From Closterium sp. NIES-65 (lineage: Eukaryota > Streptophyta > Zygnematophyceae > Desmidiales > Closteriaceae): a stretch of 64,000 bases of DNA. Below, one piece after another: positions 24,040 to 54,974 of the stretch. Location: the NCBI GenBank assembly GCA_948144175.1, contig CANXME010002096.1:1364001-1428000 (forward strand), read 5' to 3'. The notes beneath the pieces were generated by a model. It ran no database searches, had not been told where the DNA came from, and worked only from the letters and a program-made list of their open reading frames with translations. Within the stretch, counting starts at the first letter, position 1. Each line of letters opens with the position of its first letter. The position numbers were made by a program, and so were the translations under genes.

Positions 24040-27000
24040 TCATAGTCGTGCTTTCAGGTCCTTGCGCAACACCTTGCCAGAAGCGGTCTTCGGAATTGCA
24101 TCTACAAAAATCACATCATGTAGCCTCTTATATGTCGCCACCTGCATCAAAACCAAATAACATGACATCCTTGTGCGATCCCTGCATGAATACGTGAAAT
24201 GAACTGTGCATTTACTAGTCGCGCTCACCTGCTTGCTGATGAAATCCTTGACTTCTTTGACTGACAGCTTGGCACCACCTTGACTTAACACAACAAATGC
24301 CACCGGCACCTCCCCACTCTCTTCACTTGGGGCACTGTGAAAGGTGGAAAGGAGAAAAAAGGTGCAGGGTTTGATGCAAATCGACCCATAAAACAATCGA
24401 AGGCATGATACCGCCATACTGCCGAAAAAATATAGCAGCCACAGCTATAATGCAGAAGAAAACGAGCCAGTGAGAGAGCGGCAAGCAGGGCAAGAGAAGC
24501 GAGAGCATGGAAGCCTATGGAACAACTGCAGCACTGGCAATGTCAGGATGGCTTTTGAGGCGCCTAAAAAAACCTCAAAATTTTTTAGGCGCTTTAGAAG
24601 GGCAAGAGAGGGAATAGCATGGAAGCGTACGGAACAACTGCAGCATCTGCAATGTCGGGATGGGCAATGAGCAGGCCCTCCAGCTCCGCAGGAGGCACCT
24701 GGAGAGCAAGAACTAGAATGAAGAGAGACAAGTCAGAAATGCATTGTAGCCAGCATAAACTCCCAAGCAATACAAATAGCACCTCAAAAGGACCAACCAG
24801 TAAGTCGGTTCCAAAAAGCCGTGCACCGGTGGCACATCCGATGCCTTATTTATCCTTGTCCGCCTACGGTGCAGGTACGTACAACAGTCACACATTGCAT
24901 CCCATCTGGAAGTCCTCACCTGGGAGCCCTGGACTTTGATGCGCTCCTTGACTCGATCCACCACAAATATCTTCCCCCGGCCATCCACATAAACCACGTA
25001 CCCCTTCAAAACAAACGCACTCACTACAGTCACACCTCATTAGAGCACCATTCTCTACAGCCACATCCCACCTGGAAGCCCTTGACTTTGATGAGCTCCT
25101 TGACCCGGTCAACCACAAAGATCTCCCCTGCCCAATCCACGTAGGCCACGTCCCCATTCGAAACACATTTTCTACAGCGCCACTCGCTACAGTCACACCC
25201 CACCTGAAAGCCTTTCACTTTGATGAGCTCTTTGACCCTGTCCACCACAAAGATCTCCCCCATCTTGTCCACATATGCCACGTCCCCCGTGCGCAGCCAG
25301 CCGTCCGGCGTGATTGTGGCTGCTGTCGCCTCGGGATTGTTCAGATAGCCTTGTGGAGAGAAGCAGGCAGAATGGAGGGCATGAGGGATATGGGGGAAAT
25401 TTTGATTGGGGGGGATATAGAGATAGGGTGGAGAGGGGTGAGGGGGGGGGGGGGGGAGGAGAAGGGGATCGCTGAAATGGCCATTGGTTGAAAAGGGGAC
25501 TGGTGGTTGAAGGGAGGTGAAGCGTTGAAAAGGGAAAACAGTAATGGGAAAGATTCAGACTCACGTCTGAACCTGTGGAGCTAAGGAACCGCACCCTTCA
25601 AGACCTGCACCCAACTTCCAAGCCATCACACCCACAGACAACCACACCTACACACGCTCACTCCATACAACCACCCATCTAAACCCACCCACCACCCTCT
25701 TCGCTCCCCCACACCTGCCTTTCATGACCTGTGGCCCTCGCACCCAGAGCTCTCTCTTTCATTTGGCGGCATCGACTCCCCTGTGCTTGTGTCCACCACC
25801 TCTCTCGTGGCCCCTTCACCTCCACCAGCAGCAGCACCCACCCACACGCCCCTGGCGCGGACCACACTCCCCTGAATTTCTGGATGCCTGGGGGTGCTCC
25901 TGAACTCGCACGACTCAGACACACAGGCACACACACGCACAGAGACACACAAGCGCACCCACCTTTCATGACCTGCGGCCCTCGCACCCGAGTTACCCTC
26001 TCTCTCATTTTGAGGCAGCGACTGTGGCAGCCCCGACCCACACGAGCCTCTCTCGCACCCGTGCTCGTGTGCACCACTTTGACTTCCGTCAGTGGCAGCA
26101 CCCACCCACACGACCCGGGAGCAGGCGGGGTACCTGAAAGCACAAATCCACACCCACAGACGCGTGCACCTACCTTTCATGACCTGTGGCCCTCGCACCC
26201 AGAGCTCCCCTCTCTCATTCGGCGGCAGCGACTCCCCCGTGCCCGTGTGCACCACCTTCACCTCCGTCAGCGGCAACACTGACCCACACGACCCGGGAGC
26301 GGGTGGGTGGGGCACGCGGGCAAAGAGGCGCGAGGCAGTGACGGTGGGTGAGGCCTCTGTCATGCCATAGCCCTGAGGGGCGGGAAGGAGAAATGGAAGG
26401 AGAGGAGGAGAAGAAGGAGTTTCTGAGTCACCCATTTTGAAAGGGGGGCGCCTCAGTCATCATTGCTGTGAGGGGCGAGAGGGGAGGCGAGAGTGGAAAT
26501 TGGAGGATGAATGGGGAGTTAGAGGCTAGAGGAAGGGAGGACTGGATTGAAGGGGAGACGGTGGGGAGGGACTCTGTCATGCTGTAGCCCTGGGGCGAGA
26601 GGGGAAGAGCACTACACTTACCCCAGCTGCACCCTCCCCAGCTGCAGTTACCCCATATCTACCCATTCCTGCCCCAGGCATATCTGCCCCATATCTACCT
26701 GACGCCGTGTCCCCGGCCCACCTGCCCCAGCTGCACGGTGGGAAACTTTGCTCTGAAGGCGGTCTCAAGCTCCGCCCCCAGGGGAGCCGCGCCTGACACG
26801 ACCCGGCGCAGCGAGGAGAGGTCAAAGGAGTCGACGAGGGGCAGCTTGGCCATGGCTAGGATGATGGGCGGCACGATGGGCGCGACGGTTATTTTGTATT
26901 CCTGCAGTGTTCGCAGGTACTGGTGCAGGTCGAACCTGGGGGGGGGGAGGGGCAGGGGTAGGGAGGGCAGGGAGGGAGGGGAGTTGAATGTTCATTCTCT

Positions 27001-30000
27001 GGCTTTCCGTTCTCATGCACCAGAGCTCGCAGGTACTCCAAGCAGGGGATCGGACCGAACCTGCGGAGGGGAGAATGACGACCCGGCGTAGGGAAGAGAG
27101 GTCAACGGAGTCAAGGGAGTCAAAGGAGTCAACGAGGGGCAGCTTGGCCATGGCGAGGATGATGGGCGGCACGATGGGCGGCACTGTGACTTTGTAATCC
27201 TGCAGTGTTTGCAGGTACTGGTGCAGGTCGAACCTGGGGCGGGGGGGCGTGAGGCAAGGGTAGGGAGGGCGGGGAGGGTGGCAACCTGGGGCGGGGTGAC
27301 AATGACAACGCAATTTCATTCTCAGGGTTCTCAGTTTCACCAACCAGGTTTGTTCTCCGGGGAAACTCAAAGATCGTCCCCGACAGGATATGTGAAGGCA
27401 GGAGAGGTCAAAGGAGTCAAGGGAGTCAACGAGGGGCAGCTTGGCCATTGCCAGGATGATGGGCAGGTGGGGAGAGTGGGCAGGGTGGGACGGGTGGGAA
27501 GGGAAAAGGCCCTGACTCAATTCGCAGCAGCCCAAGCACTGTGCGTGGGGGGCCCAAGTCCACCTGGGGAGGGTGACTGTCTGTCAGTAGCTGCTGTTGC
27601 AGGTGTTGTTGCAGGTGTTGTTGCAGGTGTTGTTGCAGGTGTTGTTGCAGGTGCAGGAGGGTTTAGCTGGGGAGGGTGACTGAAACGCACCTGGGGAGGG
27701 TGACTGAAACGCACCTGGGGAGGGTGACTGAAACGCACCTGGGGAGGGTGACTGAAACACACCTGGGGAGGGTGACTGAAACGCACCTGGGGAGGGTGAC
27801 GACACATGACCCCCCACGGAGCGAGAGGAGGTTGACGAGGGTGATGGCGAGAGGTCGTGAGCAGCAGCCCCAACACCACATCGTGAGGAGACAGGTCCAA
27901 CTGCGGGTTGGTCCCTGCCAGCGGCTGCTGGTGCAGCAGGTGCAGGAAGGTTTACCAGATGAGGGTCGGGTGCAACATACCTGGGGAGGGTGACGACACA
28001 GGCCCCCCCACGGAGGGAGAGGAGGTTGACGAGGGTGATGGCGTAGATGTGGAACATGGGCAGCAGCCCCAGCACCACGTCCTCCCCACACAGGTCCAGT
28101 CGCGGGTTAGTCCCCGCCAGCAGCTGCTGTACGTTGGCTATGAGGTTGCGGTGGGAGAGCATGACGCCTTTAGACACGCCCGTAGTGCCTGATGAGTAGG
28201 GCAGTGCGCACGTGTCGTGCTGGGAGGGTACCACTGCTGCTGTTGGTGGTGCTTTTGGTGCTGTGACAGAGGGGTGGTGTTGCTGTTGCTGATGGGTCGT
28301 GTGAAGGTGTTGTCGCTGTGATCGGATCTTGGACCCGTTGCCATGGAGCAAGCGGTCGATGCTCATGGTGCCCGGGGGGTTGGAGCTGCTGCTGCTGCTA
28401 TCATTATTGATGACGACAAAGACAATGGACTGGCCTGTCTTGACGTGATGCACCTTCTCTGGAGGGTCATGGAAGAGGGGTCATGGAGGAGGGGTCATGG
28501 AGGAGGGGTCATGGAGGAGGGGTCATGGAAGAGGGGTCATGGAAGAGGGGTCATGGAAGAGGGGTCATGGAGGGGGTGAGAATGGAGGGGGTGAGAATGG
28601 AGGGGGTGAGGGTGGAAGGGTGTGAAGGTAGAGTGGAGGGGTGTGATGTGAGTGATTAATGCTGCAGCAGATACATCATACATGGCATTGCAGCAGTCGC
28701 ACACGTGGGGTGGCATGGCATTTCAGAACGTTGCGTAGCGTCACCTGTCCTCACACACACTCTGCCAAGCAGCTCTCGCAAACGTACCCAACCCAGCAGA
28801 TTGATGATTATGACCAGACCATCCATGTAACCAGCAGTTGTAGTCAATTTAAGTCAAGTCAAGTCAATTCGCACCTAACAGCTCTGGCGAGGTGATGACC
28901 ATTCGTGCCCCTGGTGGGACACCATCCGGTGGGACACCATCCGGTGGGACACCATCTGGTGGGACACCATCTGGTGGGACACCTCGCGAGGATTGGAGAC
29001 CTGTCTGGCGAGACACCCTCCTGTCCTGACCACCGTAAAGCACATGCACCTACTAATGAAGCAGAGTCGTACGCACCTAGCAGCTCTGGCGACGTGATGA
29101 CCATGCGTGCCCCTGCGTCCACCATCTGGTGTGCCAGCTCGCGAGCGCTGTAGGCGGGGTTGGCGGTGGTTACCACTGCACCCGCTGCGATGATCCCGAG
29201 GAAGAGCACCACGTACTCTGGCATGTTGGGGAGCAGCAGTAGGACGGACTCGCCGGGACTGCATGGGGAGGGAGATAGGGATCGAGTGGGGTAGAGTGGA
29301 GGAGGGAGGACAGCAGGAGATGGGAGTAAGGTGCTGCGATGATCCCGAGGAAGAGCACGGCATACTCGGGCATGTTGGGGAGCAGCAGTAGGACAGACTC
29401 GCCGGGACTGCATGGGGAGGGAGATAGGGGTCGAGTGGGGTAGAGTGGAGGAGGGAGGACAGCAGGAATGGGAGTAAGGTGCTGCGATGATCCCGAGGAA
29501 GAGCACGGCATACTCGGGCATGTTGGGGAGCAGCAGTAGGACGGACTCGCCAGGAATGCATGGGGGAAAGCAGGAGGGATACGGGGGGTGGGGAGAAAGA
29601 GTGGGACATGGTGGGTTTGACTTAAGGAGGGTTGCCGCCGGTGGTTACCACCGCACCCGCTGCGATGATCCCGAGGAAGAGCACTGCGTACTAGGGCATG
29701 TTGGAGTGGAGCAGCAGCACAGACTCGCCGGGCCTGGTAGGGGGTAAACATGGGTCGGGGGGATTTGGATGGCAGGGGGGGGTAGTAGCAGGAGATGGAA
29801 GTAAGGTGCTGCGATGATCCCAAGGAAGGGAACGGCGTACTCTGGCATGATGGGGAGGAGCAACATCACAGACTCGCCGGGACTGCATGGGAAAAGGTAG
29901 GGGTGGGTGGGTGGTAAAGTATGGAGGACCAGAAGGAGGGGATGGATGGGTATATTTGTGACAAGTTTCGAGGGACAGTGGCTGGTGGGTATTATTAAGT

Positions 30001-31940
30001 TGAATCAAGAATGCCCTCAGACGGGAAAAATGGATGCCAAGAGCCTTTACAAAAACCTTATTCATTGTTGTCAACGGCTTTATAAACGGGAAGGTGGTTC
30101 TACTCAAACATGTTAAGCTGCCATGCGATTCTGTATTCCTTGTTTGTTTCTATGACTTTAATCGTTCAGTTGCTTCCATTTTCTTGTCAAGAAAAGAACA
30201 ACAGAGGAACGGGTGATTGATTAGCGGACGAGTGACAGAGAGTGCAAGACAGAGGATCCACGGATCAGAAAGGAAAATGGCTGGAAGGACGACTGAGGAG
30301 GAGGGAGGGATAGAGCCGAAGATGTTCCTTCTTATGTTCAACCACGTTTGCACGACGAAGAGAGAGGATCAGAGGAGAGGACAGTACCGGATGCCGAGAT
30401 CGATGATGCCAGCAGCCACGTTGTACACGAGCTCGTCCACCTGCTCGCACACAGGAAATAGGAAGGCTAATGTGAGTGTGACATGCCATGGCTGCATGTC
30501 AGTTGCACTACGAGCCTTGAGGCGATTCAGAGAGCAGCCACGTTGGTCGGACCGACAACGCGCTAGTCGACCATTTTGGTCCGACCATGCGCGGACCCTA
30601 GCTTGTTAGCCTTCCTGTTTCCTGGGTTCAGCTTGTTAGCTCGGACCAACAAGCTAGTTGTTAGCTCGTGTGCAACAAGCTAGTTGGTCCACCTGTTCGC
30701 ACACAGGAAACAGGAAGGCTAACACATTTGAAAATTCTCAGAAGTGATTCCCAAATGTGTGACATGTCCATGCGAGTCACATGCAGTACGAGCCTTGTCG
30801 CATTTCAACGAGCAGCCACGAACGAAATACACACGGCTCGTACTGCATCTGACTCACGCACGAACGAAGTACACGAGCTCCTCCTCGTGCAAGCACACGG
30901 GAGAGGACATAGATGCCACTTGCATTGTCGTCGAACAATTGATAAGTGATTGTTCGTTGTCCCCTCGTGTGATCAACTAATGATTGATGATCCGAGGGAA
31001 TTCGACCGTTTTGGTGGAGCGAGAAAGCTCTCTCATTTCATGATCACCTGCAGAACAGATTGAGGGAAGAAAGCTCTCTCATTTCATGATCACCTGCAGA
31101 ACAGATTGAGGGAAGAAAATACTGAATGCACCTAGGGAGTGTCGCCTGAATGCACCTAGGGAGTGTCGCCTGAATGCACCTAGGGAGTGTTGCCTGAATG
31201 CACCTAGGGAGTGTCGCCTGAATGCACCTTGGGAGTGTCGCCTGAATGCACCTAGGGAGAGTCGCCTGAATGCACCTACTAGGAGAATTCAACTGGAGTA
31301 ATCTGGGCAATAAGCCACTAAGAACACGTCATTTGAGCGTAAGTCGTCTGAAAACACGTCATTGAACACGCCATTTGAGTGTAAGTCATCTGAAAGCACG
31401 TCATTGAACACGTTGAGTGTAAGTCATCTGAAAACACGTCATTGAACACGTCATTTGAGTGTAAGTCATCTGAAAGCACGTCATTGAACACGTCATTTGA
31501 GTGTAAGTCATCTGATAACACGTCATTGAACACGTCATTTGAGCGTAAGTCATCTGAAAACACGTCATTGAACACGTCATTTGAGCGTAAGTCATTGAAA
31601 ACACGAAACTGGGGAGCGACTCATGAGGATACATCATCAGAGCAGACTTGAATGCACCTAGTGATTTTCGAGTGAAATTACCTAGAGATGGTCGGCTGAG
31701 CATACGCGAATTCACCTATCGAGTGTCATCTGTGCGTGAATTCACCTAGGGAGTGACGACTGAACCTACCGAGGGAGGGAGAGTCACCTGAGCGAACGTG
31801 AGCGCGCGGCCCGTGACTCCGTCGACGAACGCGCGTCTGTCGGCCCATCGCGACGCATTCTCGAGCGCGAATTCCGGGAGGAGAACGTCATTCGGGACAG
31901 TCACGCCCGCCTCGTCTGGACAACGATAGATGATCTCCAT
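24040..31940 (-). CDS. 4CL-like acyl-CoA synthetase (AMP-forming), 10 exons, 566 aa
   Basis: Exons: 31940-31788, 30440-30388, 29258-29077, 28458-27981, 26935-26722, 26372-26174, 25349-25204, 24698-24631, 24334-24229, 24141-24040. The phases are consistent. The enzyme adenylates a carboxylic acid and transfers it to CoA. Motifs: AMP-binding box [12 protein letters not shown] (about 216-227), GYGMTE (361-366), GELWVRG (415-421), LRTGD with the AMP-ribose Asp (449), and PKTASGK with the catalytic Lys (556). Length is normal for 4CL/ACS-like ligases, despite a Ser/His/Gln-rich insertion (about 150-210) before the first box. The C-terminus ARL fits a weak PTS1 signal, so peroxisomal location is possible. 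The substrate (cinnamate, fatty acid, OPC-type) cannot be told from sequence. Its introns carry many partial copies of its own exons. Confidence 0.9.
24500..24562 (-). repeat. partial copy of ligase exon 8 (donor side)
   Basis: It reads [11 protein letters not shown] then a stop, matching exon 8 [11 protein letters not shown], and lies downstream of the real exon 8 in the intron. An inverted repeat around GGCGCC (24551-24595) is next to it. Confidence 0.75.
24910..25170 (-). repeat. two partial copies of ligase exon 7 (donor side)
   Basis: The copies end near 25060 and 24915. Both encode versions of [19 protein letters not shown] and keep a GT after the Gln codon, but lack the exon's acceptor half. 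They lie downstream of the real exon 7 (25349-25204). Confidence 0.85.
25730..26125 (-). repeat. two partial copies of ligase exon 6 (donor side)
   Basis: Copies at about 26125-25965 and 25875-25725 encode degenerate [18 protein letters not shown] and VRGPQVMKG, matching the second half of exon 6. They include the donor boundary and carry frameshifts. Confidence 0.85.
27085..27490 (-). repeat. two partial copies of ligase exon 5 (acceptor side)
   Basis: 27240-27085 encodes [17 protein letters not shown], then [15 protein letters not shown] and SSLRRVV, with an AG before it. 27480-27390 is a shorter copy around [10 protein letters not shown]. Both lie upstream of the real exon 5 (26935-26722). 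Confidence 0.85.
27667..27800 (-). repeat. 24-bp tandem array of the exon 4 splice donor
   Basis: The given-strand unit CTGGGGAGGGTGACTGAAACGCAC repeats five times, plus a partial sixth. Read on the minus strand each unit is the exon 4 end and donor: TCACCCTCCCCAG|GTGCGT. The array therefore offers several equivalent 5' splice sites downstream of the real one at 27981/27980. Confidence 0.85.
27790..27960 (-). repeat. partial copy of ligase exon 4 (donor side), frameshifted
   Basis: It encodes [14 protein letters not shown]..., and then, in another frame, [18 protein letters not shown]. This corresponds to exon 4 [30 protein letters not shown] with an internal deletion. Confidence 0.8.
28460..28640. 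repeat. 14-bp minisatellite in ligase intron 3
   Basis: GGAGGGGTCATGGA-type units repeat about eight times upstream (minus strand) of exon 4. A GGAGGGGGTGAGAAT repeat follows. Confidence 0.7.
28868..28985 (-). repeat. partial copy of ligase exon 3 donor side plus 17-bp repeat
   Basis: MVITSPELL is encoded again, followed by TAG|GTGCG like the true exon 3 end at 29077. A GGTGGGACACCATCCG repeat (five units) precedes it on the minus strand. Confidence 0.8.
29333..29887 (-). repeat. four truncated upstream copies of ligase exon 3 (acceptor side)
   Basis: Copies at about 29885-29810, 29737-29657, 29555-29482 and 29408-29333 each encode versions of [25 protein letters not shown]. Most are preceded by a CAG acceptor and are cut soon after ATCGCAG. 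Only the last copy (29258-29077) continues into [20 protein letters not shown] and ends with a donor. The second copy has a TAG after NMP and continues a little further (GAVVTT). Unit length is about 145-180 bp including flanking intron. Confidence 0.9.
31127..31290. repeat. 24-bp tandem repeat in ligase intron 1
   Basis: GCACCTAGGGAGTGTCGCCTGAAT repeats about seven times. On the minus strand each unit contains CTAG|GTGCAT, a possible acceptor-donor AGGT. Confidence 0.85.
31318..31600. repeat. 42-bp tandem repeat in ligase intron 1
   Basis: Units of GTCATTTGAGCGTAAGTCAT followed by CTGAAAACACGTCATTGAACAC repeat about six to seven times with a few changes. Confidence 0.85.
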
Positions 31941-32124: not shown

Positions 32125-32138
32125 GATATCGCCTCCTG

Positions 32139-32314: not shown

Positions 32315-35300
32315 ATGGCGTCGTGAGTGAACCCTAATTCGCCTCGCCTGCTGTCACTGCCGCTTATACACTAGCTGCTTTTTGGAGTCGACTAGAAATC
32401 GATTCTACCCTCGCTGTCTGTCCGAGACTCTCGTCTCCCCCGCGTGCCAACGTTAATGCCTCAACCTCTTACTTACCCGTCCTTAGTCTCCTTCCCAGGC
32501 ATCCGCTTGCCCCGCACCCGGTCACCTGCGAGCCGCCCGCCGGCCAACATTTCCCATCTTCCCCCCCATCCCTCCAACACTCCCCTGCCAACACTCCCCT
32601 GCCAACACTCCCCTGCCTCCACACCCCTCAAACTCACCTGCCCTTCCCCCCACCCTCCCCCCTGCAGGCGGTCGTCTGTGAACCGCCCGCCGACCCCCCC
32701 CTCCCCCCGTACCCCTCAACCCCCTCTAAACTCACCTGCCCTTCCCCCCACCCTCCCCCCTGCAGGCGGTCTTCAGTCAACCGCCCGCCAACGCCTGAGC
32801 CAGAGGGGCGGGTGGGGGGAGGAGGGGAGCCCACGTCGCTGCGACAAGTGGTGGACGCTAAAGTACGGTGTGTGTCTGTGTGAGGGTGTGTCTGTGTGAG
32901 GTTGTGTCTGTGTGAGGGTGTGTCTGTGTGAGGTTGTGTCTGTGTGAGGTTGTGTCTGTGTGAGGTTGTGTCTGAGTGAGGTTTGGGACTTTAGCGAGGT
33001 GTGCGACTCTTTAACAAAGTGTGGGACTTTAACAAGGTGAGTGACTCTCTAGCGAGGTTTGTTGGTGACCCCAGAGGGGTGTGTGACTGCAGCAGGCTGT
33101 GTGGTGAAACGTCGCGATTGAGTCAAAAAGAGAGTCCGACGACTGACAAACCCCCTTTCTTCTTCGCTCTCGAATGTCCCTCCTCCCTCCCCTCTTCGCC
33201 ACACACAGCTGTGGGAGATTGGAGAGAAGGAGCAGCTAAAGACGTTGCCAAGAGACGGGCTGGAGGAGTGCGGGTGGGCTGATGGCCTCGCTTCCTTACC
33301 TTCTCCTTATCCCTCCCTCCTCCTTCCTCCTTCCTCGCTTGCTTATGCCTCCCTCCGCTCGCTTGCTTATGCCTCCCTCCGCTCCTCCCTTATGCCTTCC
33401 ATCTCTCTTACCGCCCCACACAGCTATTAGAGAGAGTGGGGAGAAGGAGCGACTCAAGAGCTGCCGAGAAGCAGGCTGGAAGAGTGCGGGTGGACAGACG
33501 ACCTTCCTCCCTTTCGCTCCCTTCTTGATCCCTCCCTTCTCGCTCCTTTCTCCTTCCTCATGCCTCCCTCCTCCTTCACCTCTCACCACACAGCTGTTGG
33601 AGAGTGGGGAGAAGGAGCGATTAAAGACCCTGTTGGAGGACAGACTGGAGGAGTGTGGGTGGACAGACGACCTGCTGGTCTACGCCAGGTGAGTGGGTAG
33701 CCCGGTGGGTGGGTGGTGGGCAGGGTGCAGGTTGTTTCTGAGAATTCTCAAAAACAACCTGCAACATCATGGGTGGGTGGTGGGCAGGGTGCGTGGGTGC
33801 TATGCCAAGCTCAAGGCACTACTGAGGGGCAGACTGGAGGAGTGTGGGTGGGCGGACGACCTTCTGGTCTACTACGCCAGGTGAGTTAGTGGCTGGGTGG
33901 GTGATTGCCAGGTGGGTGTTTAGCCGGGTGGGAGTTTAGCCGGGTGGGTGTTTAGCCGGGTGGGTGTTTAGCCGGGTGGGTGTTTAGCCGGGTGGGTGTT
34001 TAGCCGGGTGGGTGTTTAGCCGGGTGGGTGTTTAGCCGGGTGGGTGTTTAGCCAGGTGGGTGTTTAGCCAGGTGGGTGTAGCCGGGTGGGTGTTTAGCCG
34101 GGTGGGTGTTTAGCCGGGTGGGTGTTTAGCCGGGTGGGTGTTTAGCCAGGTGGGTGTAGCCGGGTGGGTGTTTAGCCGGGTGGGTGTTTAGCCGGGTGGG
34201 TGTTTAGCCGGGTGGGTGTTTAGCCGGGTGGGTGTTTAGCCGGGTGGGTGTTTAGCCAGGTGGGTGTAGCCGGGTGGGTGTTTAGCCGGGTGGGTGTTTA
34301 GCCGGGTGGGTGTTTAGCCGGGTGGGTGTTTAGCCGGGTGGGTGTTTAGCCGGGTGGGTGTTTAGCCGGTTGGGTGTTTAGCCGGGTGGGTGTTTCGCCG
34401 GGTGGGTGTTTAGCCGGGTGGGTGTTTGGCTTGGTTAACTCATGTGCAGACGTCCTCTGGAGGTGCCTATTGGCAATGTTTTTCCACCGGGCGTTTGTAA
34501 TTCTCCGTGTGGCATGTGGATGGTGCAATTCAGTGCAGTGGCCTGCACGCATGCATGCATGCCTCCCCTCTGACCCTTACCCTCTCTCTCCCTCTCTTGT
34601 CTGTTGGTCCGGCCATCTATCAGAGCATATGTGAGCAAGGTTGGGTGTCCACGTGTATGAAGATTTGTTTTGAGACGTCTCAAAACAAATTCTCTGTGTG
34701 GCATGTGGATGGTGCAATTCAGTGCAGTGACCTGCACGCATGCATGCCTCCCCACTGACCCTTACCCTCTCTCTCCCTCCCTTGCCTCGTGATCCGGCCA
34801 TCCATCAGAGCATATGTGAGCAAGGTTGGCCGTGAAAACTTCTTATTGCATGAACTCATGTGGGCGTGTGGAATGTGGCTCGTGCTGTGCAGTGACCCGC
34901 ACGCATGCATGCCTCCACACTTACGCTTACCCTCTCTCTCCCTCTCTTGTCTGTTGGTCCGCCCGTCCATCAGAGCATATGTGAGCAAGGTGGGACGTGA
35001 AAACGTCTCATTGGAGGAGGTGATACGGGCCATCACACCCAAAGGCCGAGGTGTGTGGAAGGGAGGAGGGGTGTGTGCCTCGTTTCTCTCTACTATGCGA
35101 TTGAAGGAGTGTTTTTAGACGTCTCAAAACACTCCTTCAATCACGTGGTGTGTGCCTCGATTCTCTTTACTATGCGATTGAAGGAGTGTTTTTAGACGTC
35201 TCAAAACACTCCTTCAATCACGTGGTGTGTGCCTCGATTCTCTTTACTATGCGTGCGCATGGTGTGTGGAGGGCAGGGGTGTGTGTGTGCTTGATTCCTT

Positions 35301-35685: not shown

Positions 35686-36328
35686 CTCGCTACAAAGAAA
35701 CTCACTAAAAATTGACCATCTTTTATATGGTGACTCGTTATTACGGTAACCAATCTGACAGACTTCTAACGGAGCTTCATGTTGTATTATAGGGGCTATA
35801 ACAATGTTTCTTTCAGCAGTGTTGAGTGCAAACAGTTTTTTTTGGAAACAAGAACAATGAAGATTACTTGAAATAACATTTGTGCATATTATACGAGTGT
35901 AACCATCCAAACTGCTACTTTGCACAGAAATCCCTTGACGTGTTTTAGAGAGGAGCACATGCTGCATTGGTACAGAAGTCACTTGTACGAACACAGCCAA
36001 AGGCAGAAGTGGGAACCAATAAGCAGGATAGCCAAGAGAGACAAGTGAAAGGCTGTTTGGTTCGACATGGTAGGAAACAATTGCTCCAGTTGCTGTTGCT
36101 TTGCAGTTATGAGGCAGCTTATAAGTTGCCTTAAAAAAACTGATTGGTGCTACCTATGCGTACGAATTACTCTGGTTGCTGTAGGTCTGCACTCTGCAGT
36201 TACAGCAGAGTTGCGCGTTTTGAGACGTCTCAATACAGCAGAGCCTGCTGATGCCATGGATGGAGCTGGGGAAGGGAGGGGGAGAGAGAGGGAGGAGGAG
36301 AAGGCGGGGCAAGTGGCGGGGCGGCAGA
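35686..36328. other. intergenic between convergent ENY2 and GH127 genes
   Basis: It contains the 3' flank of both genes. The only structured element I see is a palindrome TTTTGAGACGTCTCAATA at 36218-36235. Confidence 0.5.
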
Positions 36329-42600: not shown

Positions 42601-45600
42601 ATGCACCATGCACTATGCACCATGCACCATGCACCATGCACCATGCCCTATGCACCATGCACCATGCACAATGCCCTATGCACCATGCACCATGCACCAT
42701 GCCTCTGCACCATGCACCATTCACCATGCCCTATGCACCATGCACCATGCACCATGCACCATGCCCCATGCACCATGCACCATGCACCATGCCCTATACA
42801 CCATGCACCATGCACCATGCCCCATGCACCATGCACCATGCACCATGCACCATGCACCATGCCCTGTGCACCATGCACCATGCACCATGCCCTATGCACC
42901 ATGCACCATGCCCTATGCACCATGCACCATGCACCATGCACCATGCACTATGCACCATGCACCATGCCCCATGCACCATGCACTATGCACGATGCACGAT
43001 GCACCATGCACCATGCACCATGCCCTATGCACCATGCACCATGCACCATGCACCATGCCCTATACACCATGCACCATGCACCATGCCTCTGCACCATGCA
43101 CCATGCACCATGCCCTATGCACCATGCACAATGCACCATGCCCCATGCACCATGCACCATGCCCCATGCCCTATGCACCATGCACCATGCACCATGCACC
43201 ATGCCCTATGCACCATGCACCATGCATGCACCATGCACCATGCCCTATGCACCATGCACCATGCACCATGCACCATGCCCCATGCACCATGCCCCATGCC
43301 CCATGCCCCATGCACCATGCACCATACAGCACCATGCACCATGCACCATGCCCTATGATTATGCACCATGCACCATGCACCATGCCCTTTGCACCATGCA
43401 CCATGCACCATGCACCATGCACCATGCCCTATGCACCATTCACCATGCACCATGCCCTACGCACCATGCACCATGCACCATGCCCCATGCACCATGCCCC
43501 ATGCACCATGCCCCATGCACCATGCCCCATGCACCATGCACCATGCCCTATGCACCATGCACCATGCCCCATGCACCATGCACCATGCACCATGCCCTAT
43601 GCACCATGCACCATGCACCATGCACCATGCACCATGCCCTATGCACCATGCACCATGCACCATGCCCTATGCACCATGCACCATGCACCATGCACTATGC
43701 ACCATGCACCATGCCCCATGCACCATGCACTATGCACCATGCACCATGCACCATGCACCATGCACCATGCACCATGCCCTATGCACCATGCACCATGCAC
43801 CATGCACCATGCCCTATGCACTATGCACCATGCCTCTGCACCATGCACCATGCACCATGCCCTATGCACCATGCACCATGCACCATGCCCCATGCACCAT
43901 GCACCATGCCCCATGCACCATGCACCATGCCCCATGCCCTATGCACCATGCACCATGCACCATGCACCATGCACCATGCCCTATGCACCATGCACCATGC
44001 ATGCACCATGCACCATGCCCTATGCACCATGCACCATGCCCCATGCACCATGCCCTATGCACCATCCACCATGCACCATGCACCATGCCCTATGCACCAT
44101 GCACCATGCACCATGCCCCATGCCCGATGCACCATGCACCATGCACCATGCCCTATGCACCATGCACCATGCACCATGCACCATGCACCATGCCCCATGC
44201 ACCATGCACCATGCACCATGCACCATGCACCATGCCCTATGCACCATGCACCATGCCCCATGCACCATGCACCATGCACCATGCCCTATGCACCATGCAC
44301 CATGCACCATGCACCATGCACCATGCCCTATGCACCATGCACCATGCACCATGCCCAATGATTATGCACCATGCACCATGCACCATGCCCTTTGCACCAT
44401 GCACCATGCACCATGCACCATGCCCTTAGCACCATGCACCATGCACCATGCCCCATGCACCATGCACCATGCACCATGCCCTATGCACCATTCACCATGC
44501 ACCATGCCCTACGCACCATGCACCATGCACCATGCCCCATGCACCATGCCCCATGCACCATGCCCCATGCACCATGCCCCATGCACCATGCACCATGCAC
44601 CATGCCCTATGCACCATGCACCATGCCCCATGCACCATGCACCATGCACCATGCCCTATGCACCATGCACCATGCACCATGCACCATGCACCATGCCCTA
44701 TGCACCATGCACCATGCCCTATGGACCATGCACCATGCACCATGCACTATGCACCATGCACCATGCCCCATGCACCATGCACTATGCACCATGCACCATG
44801 CACCATGCACCATGCACCATGCACCATGCCCTATGCACCATGCACCATGCACCATGCCCTATGCACTATGCACCATGCCTCTGCACCATGCACCATGCAC
44901 CATGCCCTATGCACCATGCACCATGCACCATGCCCCATGCACCATGCACCATGCCCCATGCACCATGCACCATGCCCCATGCCCTATGCACCATGCACCA
45001 TGCACCATGCACCATGCACCATGCCCTATGCACCATGCACCATGCATGCACCATGCACCATGCCCTATGCACCATGCACCATGCCCCATGCACCATGCCC
45101 CATGCACCATGCACCATGCCCTATGCACCATGCACCATGCACCATGCACCATGCCGTATGCACCATCCACCATGCACCATGCACCATGCCCTATGCACCA
45201 TGCACCATGCACCATGCCCCATGCCCGATGCACCATGCACCATGCACCATGCCCTATGCACCATGCACCATGCACCATGCACCATGCACCATGCCCCATG
45301 CACCATGCACCATGCACCATGCCCCATGCACCATGCACCATGCATCATGCCCCATGCACCATGGTGAGCGCACTCATATTGCCCTATGGCCCCTCTCTCA
45401 GGGCGTATCCCTGGGTGGTGGTAGGGCCACTGTAGATGGCAGAGTTGGTGGCATGCGGGAAAACCGCATGCCACCAACATTTTTACCGAGGCGCGCGCGA
45501 CTCGTATTTGGTGGCATTGAAGTGACATTTTTGGGACATTGCCCAATCACGCACCTGTATTCGCGCGCCAAATTTCCTGACACCAACCTGGCGTTTTATG

Positions 45601-48600
45601 TGTTCGTGGCAGGCTGCCATCTACAGTGGCCCTGCCACCACCCAGGGATACGCCCTCATATGACCCCTCTCTCATATGACCCCTCTCTCACACTCACCCG
45701 GCTGTGTGCCGCGCTGAATGCCCATGACCCCATTCATCATGGCGCGCTCATAGTAGTCCATGAAGCGCACTGAGCGCGTCCAGCGGAAAGCATTGCGCGC
45801 CATCTATGAGTGGGTTCATGGTGAAGGGGGGAGAGGGATAGGGAGAAAAGAGGGCGGGTGCACAAGGCTGGGCTAGGTGATAGCTCCTGCGCCAGTAGGG
45901 TATGATCAAGCACACAGCACTGACCTGCGTTGACACACATTAACCTGCGTTGACCCACATTGACCTGCGTTGACCCACATTGACCTGCGTTGACCCACAT
46001 TGACCTGCGTTGACTCACCTTGAGCATGATGTACGTGGTGCACGATTCCTGGTCCTCCTGTGCCAGTGCTTATGGCATGACCTAACCGCACACCACTCAC
46101 CTGCATTGACCTGCGTTGACCAGATTGACTTGCCTTCAGCATGTTGTAAGTGGTGCAGGACTCCTGGTCCTCCTGTGCCAGTATATGCCCACTCCGATGC
46201 GGCTCCTGCCTGCCCGTGACAGATGAAGAAGAAAGACAGACAGAATGCCACAGGTGGGAAATTTCTGAGGCGCCTCGAAAGACAGAATGCCACAGGTGGG
46301 AAATCGTGGCACCCACAAGATTCATGTGCTTATCACAAATCATCAAACCCCACCAGACCCCAGCATGACCACACCCAACCGGAGTGAGCCACAGCAGACC
46401 CCAGCAAACGGCACTCACCAGAACTCGAAGGCGGAGGTGCCTCCAGAGGTGAAGCAGTGCGAGGTGTTGACAATACAGCAGTTTTGAGACATCTCAAAAC
46501 CTGGTTATCATGTCACCACAGCGCACCCCAGCAAACGGTGCACCCCAGCAAAGAGGTGACTTTTGAGTCGACTCAAAAACCACAGCGCACCCCAGCAAAC
46601 GGCAACACTGACCGGAAACTCCAAGGTAGAGGTGCCTCCAGAGGTGAAGGAGTGTGAGGTGTTGATGAGAGTAAAAAAGTGGTGGGAGAGGTCACCAGGC
46701 CCCACCAGATGTGACCCACTACACCACATCACACCTCACCAGACCACAGCAAGCCATACCAGATCTCACACTAGATCACAGCAGCAGATGGCACTGACCA
46801 GAACTCGAAGGCAGAGGTGCCTCCAGAGGTGAAGGAGTGCGAGGTGTTGACGAGGGAGAGGAAGTGGTGTGAGAGGTGCTGGCGGGGGGGGAGTTGAGGG
46901 GAGGGGATTGGGGGAGTGGTGAGGGAGGTTGAGGCGCCTTAAAAGGTGCCTCCAGAGGTGAAGGAGTGCGAGGTGTTGACGAGGGACTCTGGGAGTGCTG
47001 TACATGCCCATTTCATAAACACATAAGCTTGTTTTTGAGTCGACTTTTTTTTAGTCGACTCAAAAACAGACTCCGGGAGTGCTGTACATGCCCATTTCAT
47101 AAACATGTAAGCTGTTAAACCAATCGATACCCGATGTTAACTGCTCACAATGATCTATGCTTATTAGAAACTGTTGAATCCGATTCATACATACCCAATA
47201 CCCCGTATAAGCTGCTACAATAGGTTCATACCCAGTATAAGCTGCTACAACAGGTTCATACCCGGTATAAGCTGCTACAATAGGTTCATACCCGGTATAA
47301 GCTGCTACAACAGGTTCATACCCAGTATTAGCTGCTACAATAGGTTCATACCTGGTATAAGCTGCTACAACAGGTTCATACCCGGTAAAGGCTATCCCCT
47401 GTGGCCTCGTAGCGCATCTGAGCGCCGATGGCGATGGGGATGTGCGTGTTGGCGTGCAGCCCCGGCAGGTCGTCTGCGCCCACCGCTAGTGGACCCAAGA
47501 AGCACGGCTTGTCGAATAGATGGGCCAGCTCCAAGTGGTGGGGGTCTCTCTAGTGGGGTTGTGGGAAGGGCAGGAAGGGGTTGAGAGCGGAGTGAAGGGG
47601 GCTGGTTGCCATGCAGCCATGGCTGGTCGTCCGCGCCCACCACTAACGGGCCCAGGAAACATGGCTTGGGTGGTGGGGGTCGCGCTGGGGGAGCGGGGCA
47701 GAAAGAAAACGAGTGAAAGAGGTTGTGCGTGGGGTGAAGGAGGCTAGCTGCCGTGCAGCCCTGGCAGGTCGTCCGCCCCCACCGCCAAGGGGCCCAGGAA
47801 GCATGGCAGAGTCGAGATGCGCCAACTCTAGGTGGTTGGGGTCTTTCTGGGGCGGTTGTGGGAAGTGCGGGAAGAGGAGGGACGTGCAAGAGGAGGGACG
47901 TGCAAGAGGAGGGGAGTGCAAGAGGAGGGGAGTGCAAGAGGAGGGGAGTGCAAGAGGAGGGGAGTGCAAGAGGAGGGGAGTGCAAGAGGAGGGGAGTGCA
48001 AGAGGAGGGGAGTGCAAGAGGAGGGGAGTGCAAGAGGAGGGGAGTGCAAGAGGAGCGGAGTGCAAGAGGAGGGGAGTGCAAGAGGAGGGAAGTGCAAGAG
48101 GAGGGGAGTGCAAGAGGAGGGGAGTGGGGTAAGGAAGGAAACGGGAGCAGATCAACGACGGACCCCCACCCACTGCCAACAACGGACCCAAGACTGCTGC
48201 GAATGCAATCAGAGAGCGCATAGAGTCCCCATCACTTACAGCCTATGGCGTGCCACGCACGCCATCACTTGCCACGCCACTGTGTGGAGCTCACTGGCTC
48301 GCATGCCAATGCCAGCCATGAAGACTAGGGTGAGCAGCAGTTAGGAAGATACTTGTAGCAAAAGAGAGACAGTGATACTCTCTGTGCGTTGTACCCTGCT
48401 CAAAAGTTGTGTGCAGCTCATTGGCTCGCATGCAGTGAGCACGGCTTACTATCGCACACAGCTGAGGTGACTTTTGAGTCGACTCAAAAGACACACAGCC
48501 GCTTTCAATGCACACAGTCACATACAGTCATCATCACTTATAGGCTCACGCAATGCTTACAGTGATGGCATATAGGCGGTACAGCAGGTCGTTCATGCCT

Positions 48601-51600
48601 CCAAACTCCTCGTTGAGCGACAGCCAATGGCGCGCCACCGTGTGGCGCTCGATGACTCGCTGCACGCGCCCCCGGAAGTACTCCACCATCCACGTCAGCA
48701 TGCGCAGCGCCGCCCGGCTGCCGCCCAGCTGGTATTGGTCCAACAGGCCAGCCATGATCTGAGGGGGGAGAGCGGAGGAGAGACAAGGTGGGAGGGCGAA
48801 GTGGGAGAGAAGGGGTGAGCGGGTCCATCCCATCCAGTGTGATGCCATCCGGATCCATCCCATCCAGTGAGATGCCATCCGGATCCATCCCATCCAGTGA
48901 GATGCCATCCGGATCCATCCCATCCAGTGAGATGCCATCCGGATCCATCCCACACGTGAAAGAGGAGTGTTTTTGAGACGTCTCAAAAACACTCTTCTTT
49001 CACGTGGAGAAGAGGTGATCCCCATCCATCCCAAACCGTGGTGGTGTGATTTCGGATGTATCCCATCCCGGGTGGGGTGATTCGGATCCCATCACTGACA
49101 GTGGGTCAGCATGCGTTGGTGTTGGTTCGCTCCAAGCTCGTACAACAGCTGGGAGGACTTTTGCCTCCACACGGTCAAAGAACTTACATGCGCCCCCTCC
49201 TCTTGCCCACCCCTACCATCTCCCCCCTCCCCCACCCCACCTTATGCACGGTGTAGTAGGGCGCCCACACGGGCTTGATTGCCTCCACACGGTCAAAGAA
49301 CTCCTCGGGAAACGCAGAGAGGTACCCTGAGCCAATGCGCTGCTGACACGTGTCCAGCTCTCCCACCAGATACTCCATGCGGGCTTTAAGGGTTGTGTTG
49401 CCCGTTGACGCCCACGCCAGGGCTGATGCGCTCAGGTAGTGCCCTGGAGCATGTGAAGGGACGTAAAGGGAGAAGGGAAGAGGGAAGACCAACGGATACA
49501 GTCCGGTTTGTGTCATTCCCTGCGACTGCTGACACGTGCCCAGCTGCCCTGCCCACACCTAGTCCATACTCCATGCAGGCCTTGAGCGTTGTGTTGCCAG
49601 TTAATGCCCACGCCAGGGCTGGTGCACTCAGGTAGTGGCCTGGATGGTTAAGAGGGAAGTGAAAGGAGGAGTGAAGGGAGAGGGGAAGAGAGCGAAGAAA
49701 CAAAGGGGTACAGTCCGGTTCATGTCATTCTCTGCGACCTGGTGCTGACACGTGTGCTGTTGCCCCAGCCACCATGCGTGTACAGTCCAGTTCATGTCAT
49801 ACACTACACGGGCTTTAAGGGTGGTGTTGCCTGTAGATGCCCACACCAGGACTGATGCGCTTCAGTAGTGCCCTGGATGGTTAGAAAGAGTACAGGTCGA
49901 GAGTTCACGAGACAAGTCGAAAGAGTGCACTCTCACCTCACACGAGACAAGTCGAAAGAGTGCACTCTCACTCCCCCACCCCCTCCCTCTCCCCACTTCC
50001 CCACTCACACACGAAATGCCCCCTCAATTCGCTATGAGGGTTTAGGGTTCCCCCACCGCCCATACAGCTTCCCTTTTGGCTCCTCCCCCCCTGCCGTCTG
50101 CCGTCAAGCCATTCACTCATCACCTCCCTCACTCCCTCCCTCGCTCCTTCACTCCCTCAACCCCTCTCTCTCCTAATCCATCTCTCTACCTTCGCTTCCC
50201 CCCATTTCCCCCCACTTCCCCCCACTTCCCCCCACTCACCCACGAAGTGTCCCCTCAGTTCACTATTAGGGTTCTCCCATCCCCCATACGGCTTCCCTAT
50301 TGGCTCCTCTCCCGCCGTCCGCCGGAACGACCACAGCAAGCGGTCGGCGTCGAGCGTCAGGAGGTACTCGAGGTTGGCGCTCTGGGCGGCAAACTGACGC
50401 GTGGATGGCGACAGGCGGACGGCATGCAGCGGCAGTGGGGAGAGGAAGTGAGGGTGCTGCCACGTGGGGAGAAGGAGAAGGGGGGAAGGGAGATGGGGGG
50501 ACAGGGGGAGTACGGGAAAGGGGAAGGGGGAGGGGGAGAAGGAAGAGTGGTAAGGGGGGGAGGAATAGGGGGAAAAGGGGAAGGGGGGATGAGAGGAAAG
50601 AATGAACGACCACAGCAGGCGGTCGGCGTCGAGCGTCAGGAGGTACTCGAGGTTGGTGCTCTGGGCGGCAAACTGCCGCGTGGCCGGCGGCAGGCGGACG
50701 GCGTGCAGCGGCAGGGGCGAGAGGAAGTGCAGCCGCTGCTATGCACGGGGGGAAGGGGATGGGGGAAAAGGGGGAAAAGGGGAAGGGGGAAAGGGGAAAT
50801 GTGGAAAGGCCAGCGGCGAGAGGAAGTGCGGGCGCTGCTATGCACGGGGGGACAACTGGAAAGAAGGGAAAGGGGGAGGGGAGGGATGGGGAGAGGGAGT
50901 GCGCACGCTGCTATGGACCAGGGGAAGAGGGGGGAGTCCCACCCGCCCACCCTCGCAACCCCCCCCCACCCGCACCCTCTTCTCACCCACTCCCGCATGG
51001 CTCGCTGCTTTCCGCTTCCCCCGTTTCCCCCCGCGTCCGCAGCGCCCGCAGTGTCTGCAGCGTCCGCAGCGTCCCCCTCCGCGTCCGCAGCGCCCCTTGC
51101 AGCGCCCGCAGTGTCTGCAGCGTCCGCGGAGCGGCGGGAAGTTCTCCCCGCCAGCGCGTCCGCGGCTGCGCGGCTGTCCGCGTGGTGGCTCAGTACGCGC
51201 AGGTGCTCGCGCACGGAGGGACTGGGGGAAAAGGCAGGGGGGGAAAGGAAGAGGTGGGAAATGGAATGAGGAGGGAGAGGAGGAAAGGACGGGGGAGCAT
51301 GATCGAGTGCGGGGGACAAGGGGATGCGGAAGGATTGGGGAGCCGCTGCGCATTGCCAGGTGGAAAGCAAGCATCCGGGAAGAATCTGCCAATCCTTTTC
51401 CCGGGCATGTTTGTAACGAACCGCCGCGTTGCAAGCGAAAATGCCTTATCCGTTGAAACCTGGTACCTGAGGTGCTGTCGTGGGGTTGCGAAAGGGCGCG
51501 TCCGTCCCTGATACCTGTGGAACATTTTGTCGTTTTTCGCAAGCGCGAGATGTCTCTACCTGTAACGGTGCTAGTACCTGTTAAAAAACTCGTGCGGCTG

Positions 51601-52421: not shown

Positions 52422-54974
52422 TATTTCAGACCAATACATATATTGCACCGTTCTACATTGCTGCTCCTGTTGCCTTTTTCAGTAAAAAAAATGGCTGGTG
52501 CTTTACGACGTTGCTCAGCGTATTGGGAGGATATGGGTTGCAAGCTGAAGATTTGGTCGAAGCGGGAGAGGCGGCATTCTTGTGTTTATTCCTGGAAAGG
52601 ATGGCAAGCTGCAAGCAGGAAGAAAAAACATAAGGGGCATGGGGACAATTGGGAAAAATGGGCAACCACAAATCTCGTAAAAGCTGGTGGCATACGGTGG
52701 AAACAACATCTGGACGTCTGTTCCTGATCCCGCTGTACAGCTCACCTTTCCACGGACAATGCTAGATTGCGCTTCAGCTGCTGCAACATGTGGCTGGAGT
52801 CGTGTAACTGCATACACAAGGAACAGCACACACACGTGTTATTCGGATGCTGCTGTGTTTCATGCCACAGAATGCCATGCGGCATAGCATGGTACATGAC
52901 ATACCATGGTATACAGCAGAGTATGGTGGTACATAGCAGAGTTTGATTCATGTGATGTATTGTATCAAATGGGACATAGCAATGCATGGAGGAAAAAAAA
53001 CGGAACAATCATTGGGAAAGCATCACAGGTCAATAAAAATACACACCTTTTGCAGACGAAGTGCCTCCTTAATCTTCTCAATAAGCACAGTGCTGTGCGC
53101 CAGCCGCGCCTCCTGCTCCACCGGCACACTCCACGGTACCGCAGACACCAATAAAGGGGACGACGGCTGCATGGCTACAGGTGGTGATGCCATGGCTGTG
53201 AGCACTGACGTGGGTGACACTGACGAGCCGGGTGATTCAAACGACCCTCGTGCTGCCTGCGATGTTTTTGACTCAAACAGGAATGGGGCTTTGACCCCTT
53301 TATTGTGAGGCGCTCCATGTGCTTTTAATTTCTGCTTTGATCGTTGTGCCACCCCATGCTGCACGCCCTGCATCAGCAAGGGCTGTGCCTGTGCATCGGC
53401 GGTGTCTGCAGCAACAGAAGCATCAGCGCGACCTGCATCCTTGTCGCAACCAGCAGCACCGCTCACGCCACCACTCTTGATGTCTATTCCAAGAACCGTG
53501 CCCTCTAGAAAAGCTAAATCTGCTGCAGCAGCACCACCATCAGCAACACTAGCAGCAGCACCATTATCAACGGCAGCAGCATCACTGGGAGAACCAGGAG
53601 CGATGGCTGATGGAGCAGGAGCAGCAGGGGCAGCAGGCGTATTAGTGGCTAGTAAGCAGTCAAGCGTCATTGAGAGTGCATCACAGAACTCACTAGCTGG
53701 AGCACCACTCGCGCCCATACCCGCATCCCCATCCCCCCTCACGCCCCCATCCCCCCATGCGCCCCCATCCCCCCACCCGGCCCCTTCCCCCCCGCTCCCT
53801 CCAACACCGTCCTCCGCTTTCACTGGCGGCGATTCGCCCAGACCCTGCGCCAGCAGCCTGTCCTCCTCATTGACTGCCTCGTTATGCGCTGCGTCCGCTG
53901 CTGCTGCTGCTCCGCGCACTTCTGTGCTGCGCGATGCCTTCTTCCGCGGCGAAGTGGCCTGCGGGCTTCCGAGCTTCCGCTTGTGCGGCTCTGGAGCCTG
54001 GGAAGGGGAGGAGCGGAGGGGGCGGGCGAAGGGGGCGCGCGAAGGGGAAGAGCGGAAAAGGGGAAGAGGAGAAAGGGAAAGTATCTGGCTTCCGAGTTCC
54101 GCTTATGCAGCTTTTGAGGCTGGGGAGGGGGCGCGCGGATGGGGCGGCCGGAGATGTCACACGGGAATTTATTCTCCATCCGTCGGGTGTGTAAGCCTAG
54201 ATTCGGTTGCGCTGCTGAGTTCGTCGCGTTGCTCGCATCGCGCGCCTCGAGGACGCGTCGCCAATAACGCCAAATGCAATGCCGGCGGCCGTGCCCTTTC
54301 CGAATGGGCTCGTGTGGTTTTTGCCGCACAATGCGGCCTCTGCGTCGCGCTTTAGCGGTTTCAGAGGCGGTTGCGTCTTGACCGAATGGGGTTGTAGTAA
54401 GGCTTTGGTGTTTCTTACGAGTCAAGCACAAGTGCGGATCTTTAGCAAGGGGTTATACCTTGTCGCGCCATCTGCAGCGAATTGCCACGTCTCTAGCCGT
54501 CTTGCTCGGCATACACGCGGCCACTAGCAGGTACCTCTGTAACGGAGACAGCTTGCTATCCGCATGCCTGGTTTGGTAGGGAGTGGATCGAAAGGAAGGC
54601 AGGGAGGAAAGCCACGGGCGAAAGGTTGAGTAAATCAAAATTACTACTTGGGAACGGGGCTCTTGAAGGAGGGGCTGAGCAGATTTCGGGGAAAGGGGGA
54701 TCGGGGAAAGCGGCCTGCGTGAGATGTTGGAAAGGATATGCAGAAAGGAGCGCTGAGATACCAAATGTCTCCTTTTCGCGACAAGAGAGGAGTCTGGTGG
54801 GCATAAAAGTGTGCGGGATAGCATTTCGCGAGCGAATTTTGCGAACCTCGCCAATGCTCGCTCTAGCTCGCGATCTTCCTCCGGCGACCACGACTGCGAC
54901 AGCAGCGGGAGATGCAGCAGCTCCGCAATCGGCGCTGAACTCGCCCGGGCACTCCGCGTGCATGTCTCCGCCAT
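52422..54974 (-). CDS. SANT/MYB-like nuclear protein of the plant DUF3755 type (3' end uncertain)
   Basis: The best start is ATG 54974 (MAETCTRSARASS, context GCCATGG); an upstream in-frame ATG at 55325 is possible. Exon 1 gives SWSPEEDRELERALARF; its donor is unclear because the intron to 54537 is itself open in frame. Exon 2 is 54536-54459 (RYLLVAACMPSKTARDVAIR + CRWRDK), the second half of the SANT-like domain. Exon 3 is 53997-53047: basic segment HKRKLGSPQATSPRKKASRS, a long Ala/Gly/Ser-rich part, then a helical segment LAHSTVLIEKIKEALRLQK. Exon 4 is 52807-52746 (LHDSSHMLQQLKRNLALSVE). A possible exon 5 is 52544-52422. The layout matches plant DUF3755 proteins (SANT-like domain, KR-rich stretch, C-terminal helices) as I remember them. 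The function is unknown, probably chromatin-linked. Confidence 0.65.
54085..54118 (-). repeat. partial upstream copy of SANT gene exon 3 start
   Basis: CCCAG followed by coding for PQKLHKRNSEA mirrors the true exon 3 start APEPHKRKLGSPQ at 53997, about 115 bp upstream. Confidence 0.75.

Follow-up and report, generated by a model that had tools for sequence, protein, structure and literature searches.

RESULTS

Host genes of the window

The stretch analyzed here (the window) is 64 kb of the nuclear genome of Closterium sp. NIES-65 (assembly G000, C1798:1364001-1428000), Closterium being a unicellular alga related to land plants. It carries a 4-coumarate-CoA-ligase-like gene (4CL; 24040..31940, minus strand), an ENY2 gene (32766..35050, plus strand), a GH127 gene (36630..51221, minus strand), and a fourth, MYB-like gene with an exon at 53997, whose Pfam match falls under its cut-off. 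Two kinds of feature in and around these genes are considered: partial copies of exons that lie beside the exons they came from, and palindromes with the core TTTTGAG-N4-CTCAAAA, which were first spotted by reading the introns and had been missed by the original prediction for this DNA.

The ligase gene was modelled with 10 exons (exons 1 to 5 at 31940-31788, 30440-30388, 29258-29077, 28458-27981, and 26935-26722; exons 6 to 10 at 26372-26174, 25349-25204, 24698-24631, 24334-24229, and 24141-24040), which join in a clean frame of 566 amino acids (aa) with PF00501 and PF13193; the protein matches P0001 of NIES-68 at 82%. Three ENY2 exons were modelled (32766-32862, 33594-33688, and 34974-35050), the first ENY2 exon lying outside the model, and their 67-aa splice matches PF10163 (E 1.5e-16). 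GT directly follows position 32862; the copy search described below used 32863 as the end of that exon. The GH127 model has 12 exons, with the gene start outside the model, and a clean 1129-aa frame. It is 100% identical over the aligned part to the NIES-65 protein P0123, in which PF07944 was found; the best local alignment between the two reaches 51%, and P0123 omits the end of model exon 10. GH127 junctions are canonical apart from one GC donor (AAG/GCAAGT), which closes exon 7 at 46134; the downstream copy of exon 7 has GT.

Partial exon copies are polarized around their source exons

BLASTN (direct orientation only, E <= 1e-4) was used to match each modelled exon, extended by 120 bp of flank, against the gene it belongs to. 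This search returned 46 partial exon copies in three genes (17 in 4CL, 23 around 8 exons of GH127, and 6 in ENY2), touching 18 of the 25 modelled exons; the earlier count by eye, about 30, was too low. All 23 copies that keep an acceptor lie upstream of their exon and none downstream, and the 15 with a donor are all downstream, none upstream, as the original prediction had described for three genes and, once, a fourth. One further copy, which retains the stop-codon end of the last GH127 exon, is also downstream (the scripted tally counts it with the donors, giving 16). The expected polarity is thus found in 38/38 junction-spanning copies plus this one, and the internal copies (n = 7) are divided between the two sides (4 upstream, 3 downstream). 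Copies are 70 to 100% identical to their exons (median, 82%) and mostly retain the splice dinucleotide (AG in 21/23 acceptor copies, GT/GC in 14/15 donor copies). An intact exon remains in frame, as seen in the clean 4CL and GH127 frames and in the PF10163 match of the ENY2 splice. The polarity and the clean frames support the proposal that a tandem duplication spanning a junction produces this arrangement while leaving one full exon.

In the ligase gene (minus strand), four overlapping acceptor-side copies lie upstream of exon 3 (29333..29928; direct-repeat family D17), the nearest being shifted by 148 bp, and donor-side copies lie downstream of exon 4 (27647..27930), exon 6 (25712..26129), exon 7 (24914..25155), and exon 8 (24484..24551); in this last case a gap of 44 bp, with a palindrome in it, lies between the exon end and the copy. 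In ENY2 (plus strand), two acceptor-side copies precede the second modelled exon (33154..33504) and one copy follows it (33827-33903), and two acceptor-side copies precede the third (34506-34644 and 34696-34848), with a palindrome between them (34668-34685). In GH127 (minus strand), two donor-side copies lie downstream of exon 6 (46692-46606 and 46471-46341), with palindromes at 46482 and 46561 between them, and a 43-bp exact copy of part of the same exon (46944..46986) is abutted by a decayed palindrome with 3 mismatches (46927-46944). Five acceptor-side copies, which include a 29-bp subarray, lie upstream of the last GH127 exon (38020..38660), and copies of its end lie downstream of the stop codon (36274..36617). 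The MYB-like exon has an acceptor-side copy upstream (54153-54087, minus strand; 81%, E 4e-13). The exon list of the original prediction was incomplete: ligase exon 2 (upstream), exon 3 (also downstream), and exon 6 (also upstream) are to be added, as are several GH127 exons by our own mapping of the exon numbers. Between 24040 and 51221, neighboring copies are often shifted by 90 to 220 bp, near nucleosome size.

Duplications fill introns and do not target junctions

Between 23.7 and 52.1 kb, with the listed arrays masked, local duplications cover 47% of the bases in introns, 33% of those in exons, and 18% of the rest. Intron growth by the proposed route is supported. Exon bases more than 90 bp from an exon end are in duplications in 13% of cases, versus 41 to 54% nearer the ends. 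With arrays unmasked, the share elsewhere is 20% at 1-8 kb, 1.5% at 8-16 kb, 1.4% at 16-23.7 kb, and 17% at 55-64 kb, and many of the tandem pieces in the window are ordinary minisatellites. We do not claim that duplications are confined to genes, since the 8-23.7 kb region is low but the transposon-like 1-8 kb region is not. In our reading, translated frames from 1-23700 look like those of a transposase and of Copia-type retrotransposons. One GH127 intron contains a 4.2-kb array in which the 7-bp unit is CCATGCA (41141-45363), and the ligase and ENY2 genes have a tRNA-Gly (ccc) gene between them (32057-32124).

Junctions fully within a duplication number 14/46, versus 45% of intronic 13-mers. 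Because junction coverage does not exceed the intron background, junctions are not targets, and targeting was rejected. The polarity arises because any tandem duplication across a junction yields it once the complete copy is called the exon; it is a signature of tandem duplication, with no further process, and the idea that it marks a special one is unsupported. The pattern fits duplications that arise across genes and are kept where one exon stays whole. The suggested fit to AGGT-type intron creation fared no better: 38 of the 46 copies span preexisting junctions, and neither a new intron nor an exonic duplicated segment furnishing its two splice sites was demonstrated.

With their retained dinucleotides, the copies are potential decoy splice sites, as the original prediction had it, and they might be kept as regulated decoys. 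The dinucleotide is kept in 35/38 copies, compared with 28.8 expected from exon-side identity (simulated P = 0.008), and one Naga37s-1 gene model (P0124) uses a copy of the last exon. However, the excess would be weak evidence of decoy retention: a detection bias is possible, as alignments must cross the site, and the test was small and done once. In addition, the models for P0121 (NIES-65) and P0122 (NIES-64) hold intact exons rather than copies, and intron interiors are filled by duplications as well. We therefore regard regulated retention as improbable.

A palindrome family is abundant in the genome

The window holds 5 exact TTTTGAG-N4-CTCAAAA palindromes, 11 at up to one mismatch, and 17 at up to two, whereas first-order simulated sequences (five per level) contained none up to two mismatches. 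Across the 874-Mb assembly (874,075,685 bases in 2,400 contigs), the exact pattern occurs at 30,327 places and the reversed pattern at 4. Palindromes with a TCGA core number 13,080 genome-wide and those with an ACGT core 5,047, with 0 control matches for each. The TCGA family extends to a palindrome of ~34 to 38 bp, whose 34-mer has 163 exact occurrences versus 0 for the control, and one palindrome with an ACGT core (at L062) is as long as 52 bp and has other arms. The two ends of a palindrome are often truncated to different extents. In a check for foreign origin, a 28-mer of the TCGA family had no exact match in the IMG/VR viral collection, and a 20-mer had none in a prokaryote genome collection.

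Within the window, TTTTGAGGCGCCTAAAAA (24553..24570) has a copy of the ligase exon 8 end on either side, the flanking repeat being 53 bp long with 46 positions identical. TTCTGAGAATTCTCAAAA (33736..33753) lies between the second ENY2 exon and the copy downstream of it and has perfect 23-bp direct repeats of its own, and two palindromes (35112 and 35189) sit within a 77-bp tandem array (35112..35206). Three others are bounded by direct repeats: TTCTGAGGCGCCTCGAAA (46263..46280) by perfect 24-bp repeats, a palindrome at 47048..47065 by 49-bp repeats (45 identical), and TTTTGAGTCGACTCAAAA (48472..48489), whose left arm is asymmetric, by a 9-bp target duplication (8 identical). TTTTGAGACGTCTCAAAA (48971..48988) lies inside a longer inverted repeat of the ACGT-core family.

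Direct repeats flank most sampled palindromes

Loci fetched with the motif (L015-L062) contained 77 unique palindromes, of which 39 were dropped as array members and 38 were scored. Palindromes lay between direct repeats (alignment score >= 16) in 32/38 cases, compared with 20 of 220 control positions taken from 20 arbitrary stretches of five of the same contigs (positions that are not independent of one another). For directly adjacent repeats, the numbers were 22/38 and 12/220. Loci fetched with the 34-mer were within a direct duplication in 16/19 cases. Where target copies are directly adjacent (19 cases), they are 13 to 94 bp long, and perfect flanking duplications include ones of 60 bp (L026), 29 bp (L009), and 23 bp (L034). 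An earlier comparison under other scoring (>= 40) gave 11/21 palindromes versus 10% of 3,671 control positions. Viewed from the side of the repeats, 9 of 66 two-copy repeats have a palindromic spacer (arm >= 6), and all nine spacers belong to the TTTTGAG-N4-CTCAAAA family; six of these came from motif-fetched loci, and in other sequence the family accounts for 3/3.

Some palindromes are evenly spaced, at C6:107990-108155 (37 bp), C16:109897-110170 (64 bp), C18:9243-9638 (63 bp), and C398:1205349-1206731 (71 bp). Such series are minisatellites with a palindrome in each unit. Some arrays are built of target plus palindrome, such as the 37-bp units at C6:107990, and C398:1205349 looks alike.

A second copy of the locus contains pre-insertion sites

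A second copy of the locus (C1755:128486-131154) has main blocks that are 92 to 98% identical to the window; the alignment spans 3,390 columns (92% identical) and includes six palindromes. At two of these six, the window reads target-palindrome-target and the second copy has a single target and no palindrome: at 46263 the target is 24 bp (up to 28 bp with ambiguous bases), and at 48472 it is 9 bp (8 identical). The palindromes at 46482 and 47048 are common to both locus copies, and at 46561 the window has one palindrome where the second copy has an array. The target duplicates around palindromes, together with the two pre-insertion sites, indicate that the palindromes are small hairpin insertions that duplicate their target. 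A regulatory or RNA role as the primary nature of the palindromes was considered and is not favored, given that flanking target duplications and pre-insertion sites are marks of insertion.

In the second copy, the end of GH127 exon 5 also has additional plain copies, and one of them, 98% identical to the exon, is a recent duplication. No palindrome of the TTTTGAG-N4-CTCAAAA family was seen at that duplication in the displayed part of the second copy. A second aligned stretch (L104), 98.8% identical over 3,019 columns, has two gaps of at least 8 bp, both of which are changes in array length.

Ordinary replication slippage or unequal exchange could in principle have made all of the copies, with the palindromes as bystanders; most exon-copy pairs have no palindrome in the gap, and array lengths differ between the two locus copies, as this explanation would have it. 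However, it does not account for the excess of palindromes between direct repeats at the motif-fetched (32/38) and 34-mer (16/19) loci over control positions (20/220), nor for the joint absence of palindrome and target duplication from the second copy at two sites, and slippage cannot put the same palindromic sequence at unrelated sites. We consider it unlikely.

Protein models of other strains

Comparison with other strains used automatic gene models at the protein level rather than RNA. Protein P0129 of Yama58-4 reads AAHDEAVKEEDRLL-FESTENSALGV-AAHNEAVKEEDRLL. Translation of TTTGAGTCGACTCAA would give FESTQ, one residue off the FESTE of P0129. The insert is absent from seven other Closterium proteins that cover the place (P0121-P0124, P0126, P0130, and P0165), and proteins of Naga37s-1, NIES-53, and NIES-54 carry another short repeat immediately ahead of this place. 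At the level of these models, the P0129 insert is compatible with a third site of the pre-insertion type. Protein P0165 of NIES-53 reads FEMSRNNCTVNASHSFTSGG, and the window gives FEMSQNCCIVNTSHCFTSGG across palindrome 46482 and the exon 6 copy; from this comparable read-through, the two strains appear to share both the palindrome and the GH127 exon 6 copy.

Two Naga37s-1 proteins also contain exon-copy sequence. P0005 has repeated GYGMTEAFCTVSSSP pieces, like the upstream copy of ligase exon 6. In P0124, RDERYTSYFN occurs a second time, at the C terminus, and this second piece is similar to the copies that lie downstream of the last GH127 exon, making P0124 a candidate for the use of an exon copy as a new exon. 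In the annotated proteins P0121-P0123 (NIES-64/65), a MYB-like N-terminal part (seen in P0123, under the Pfam cut-off) is fused to GH127, perhaps because the annotation has merged two genes.

These proteins bear on whether the exon copies are assembly artefacts, an outcome that would have undone the original prediction. The assembly is indeed repeat rich. Against an artefact stand the translated exon copies in separately named strains (Naga37s-1 P0005 and P0124, NIES-53 P0165), the divergence of the copies from their exons (median identity, 82%), and the specific, sensible ways in which the two locus copies differ. An artefact is hardly credible on these data.

DISCUSSION

We think it very probable that genes of this Closterium strain accumulate local tandem duplications and that palindrome insertion and plain duplication both contribute to exon copies. 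In the scheme that we propose, genes of this strain would gather tandem duplications locally, each some tens to a few hundreds of bases long, and those that span an exon edge would survive because one complete exon remains, the truncated copy becoming intron with a potential decoy splice site. Events would be of two types. In the first, a perfect palindrome (18 to ~52 bp) would insert and duplicate its target, X, giving X-palindrome-X; if X contained an exon edge, an exon copy would result, and X-palindrome units could then expand into minisatellites. The second would be plain tandem duplication without a palindrome, the majority at exon edges here. In the reading that we prefer, a staggered break that is filled in would make X, with the hairpin, mobile or captured, inserting there, and plain duplications may come from the same kind of break. 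The scheme builds on the arrangement of the copies, the genome-wide abundance of the palindromes, the two pre-insertion sites, and the differences between locus copies and, in protein models, between strains.

Several observations weigh against a general role for the palindromes. Palindromes (up to 3 mismatches) occur in the gap of only 4 of the 46 exon-copy rows, namely those of ligase exon 8, GH127 exon 6, and the second and third ENY2 exons, with the decayed palindrome at 46927 abutting a fifth copy; palindromes therefore do not explain most exon copies. At only two places, ligase exon 8 and the third ENY2 exon (where the duplication is ~140 to 150 bp), are the exon copies themselves the flanking repeats. 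The palindromes at 33736 and 46561 have shorter direct repeats of their own (23 and 24 bp), so the palindrome need not have made the exon copy there. No flanking duplication was found at 6/38 and 3/19 sampled palindromes. In 14 arbitrary 10-kb pieces, 641 of 2,100 random positions passed (466 for adjacent repeats, at a laxer score of 12), a poor control because the pieces are full of arrays. Positions 120 to 140 bp beside palindromes passed in 44/148 (any) and 8/148 (adjacent) cases, although this shifted control overlaps the same repeats as the palindromes themselves. The strain evidence is at the protein level only and depends on automatic gene models. Finally, we know of no autonomous partner or inserting enzyme for the palindromes, and no search for one was completed.

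Most exon copies here are plain tandem duplications. They may come from the break process proposed above in cases where no hairpin was captured, or be older events that have since lost their palindrome.

The palindrome could instead be a recurrent filler that is taken up when long staggered breaks are repaired, with no enzyme of its own to move it. Duplication length varies (13 to 94 bp at adjacent target copies, about 9 and 24 to 28 bp at the pre-insertion sites, and ~140 to 150 bp for ENY2), as in break repair rather than with a fixed-stagger transposase, and the asymmetric truncation of arms also resembles break repair; variable target length and unequal truncation both speak against such a transposase. 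Fill-in of protruding ends is known to give small tandem duplications (PMC8355091). However, the recurrence of the same palindrome families thousands of times speaks against random filler, and a source of free hairpin DNA would be required. Recurrent filler is a serious possibility that we hold to be somewhat doubtful. Whether the palindromes of Closterium nuclear genomes are mobile DNA of a previously undescribed class we regard as evenly balanced. Such DNA would consist of perfect hairpins that lack an interior, are 18 to ~52 bp long, and form several core families with tens of thousands of copies. Its target duplications would vary from ~9 to 150 bp, and through them it would make introns grow, create decoy splice sites, and give rise to minisatellites.

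Known systems resemble parts of this picture. The AGGT model of intron creation, credited to Rogers and to Hellsten (2011), is said to start from duplication inside an exon. In Closterium, in contrast, existing introns lengthen, the copies become intron, and most copies span existing junctions. In a case of intron gain by tandem duplication in the potato RNA-dependent RNA polymerase gene (RdRp), an intron-exon segment was duplicated in tandem, and as in Closterium the duplicated segment includes intron-exon structure (PMC4974935). Small tandem duplications at staggered DNA breaks, involving Pol alpha-primase/CST, are likewise short direct duplications made in one step and could make the X copies (PMC8355091). 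Yet that process does not predict one recurring palindrome between the copies. Patch-mediated repair in rice reportedly also leaves small tandem duplications at staggered breaks.

Among selfish elements, the organelles of Volvox carteri contain hairpin-forming repeats of 10 to 100 nucleotides in introns and spacers, and the text describing them calls nuclear copies inert and has no word beginning "target" or "duplicat" (PMC2670323). The Closterium palindromes fall in the same size range and have many dispersed copies, but they are nuclear, have target duplications, and have perfect stems in the sampled copies (a feature favored by the exact search). Miniature inverted-repeat transposable elements (MITEs) and other nonautonomous DNA transposons have inverted repeats, high copy number, and a target duplication of a length fixed for each transposase family. 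The palindromes share the inverted-repeat structure, the high copy number, and the target duplication; however, the whole element is 18 to ~52 bp with no interior, and target duplications are not of fixed length but vary widely. Bacterial repetitive extragenic palindromic (REP) elements and yeast mitochondrial GC clusters are very small mobile palindromes. They occupy different genomes, and we know of no target duplications in them as long as those of the Closterium palindromes. The Closterium genome paper gives mean introns of 485 to 554 bp, attributes genome size to copy number, and has no word beginning "palindrom" (PMC10407611). Searches limited to open-licence papers turned up no report of nuclear palindromes of the TTTTGAG-N4-CTCAAAA type in Closterium.

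For streptophyte algae related to land plants, the locus offers a step-by-step and still datable record of intron lengthening and of a possible origin of decoy splice sites. The palindrome family exemplifies insertion in which an exon edge can be part of the duplicated target, and this would connect three subjects usually treated apart: selfish hairpins, the repair of breaks, and how tandem repeats originate. Since one assembly contains the locus twice, in closely similar form, and several strains have been sequenced, this process is directly testable in Closterium.

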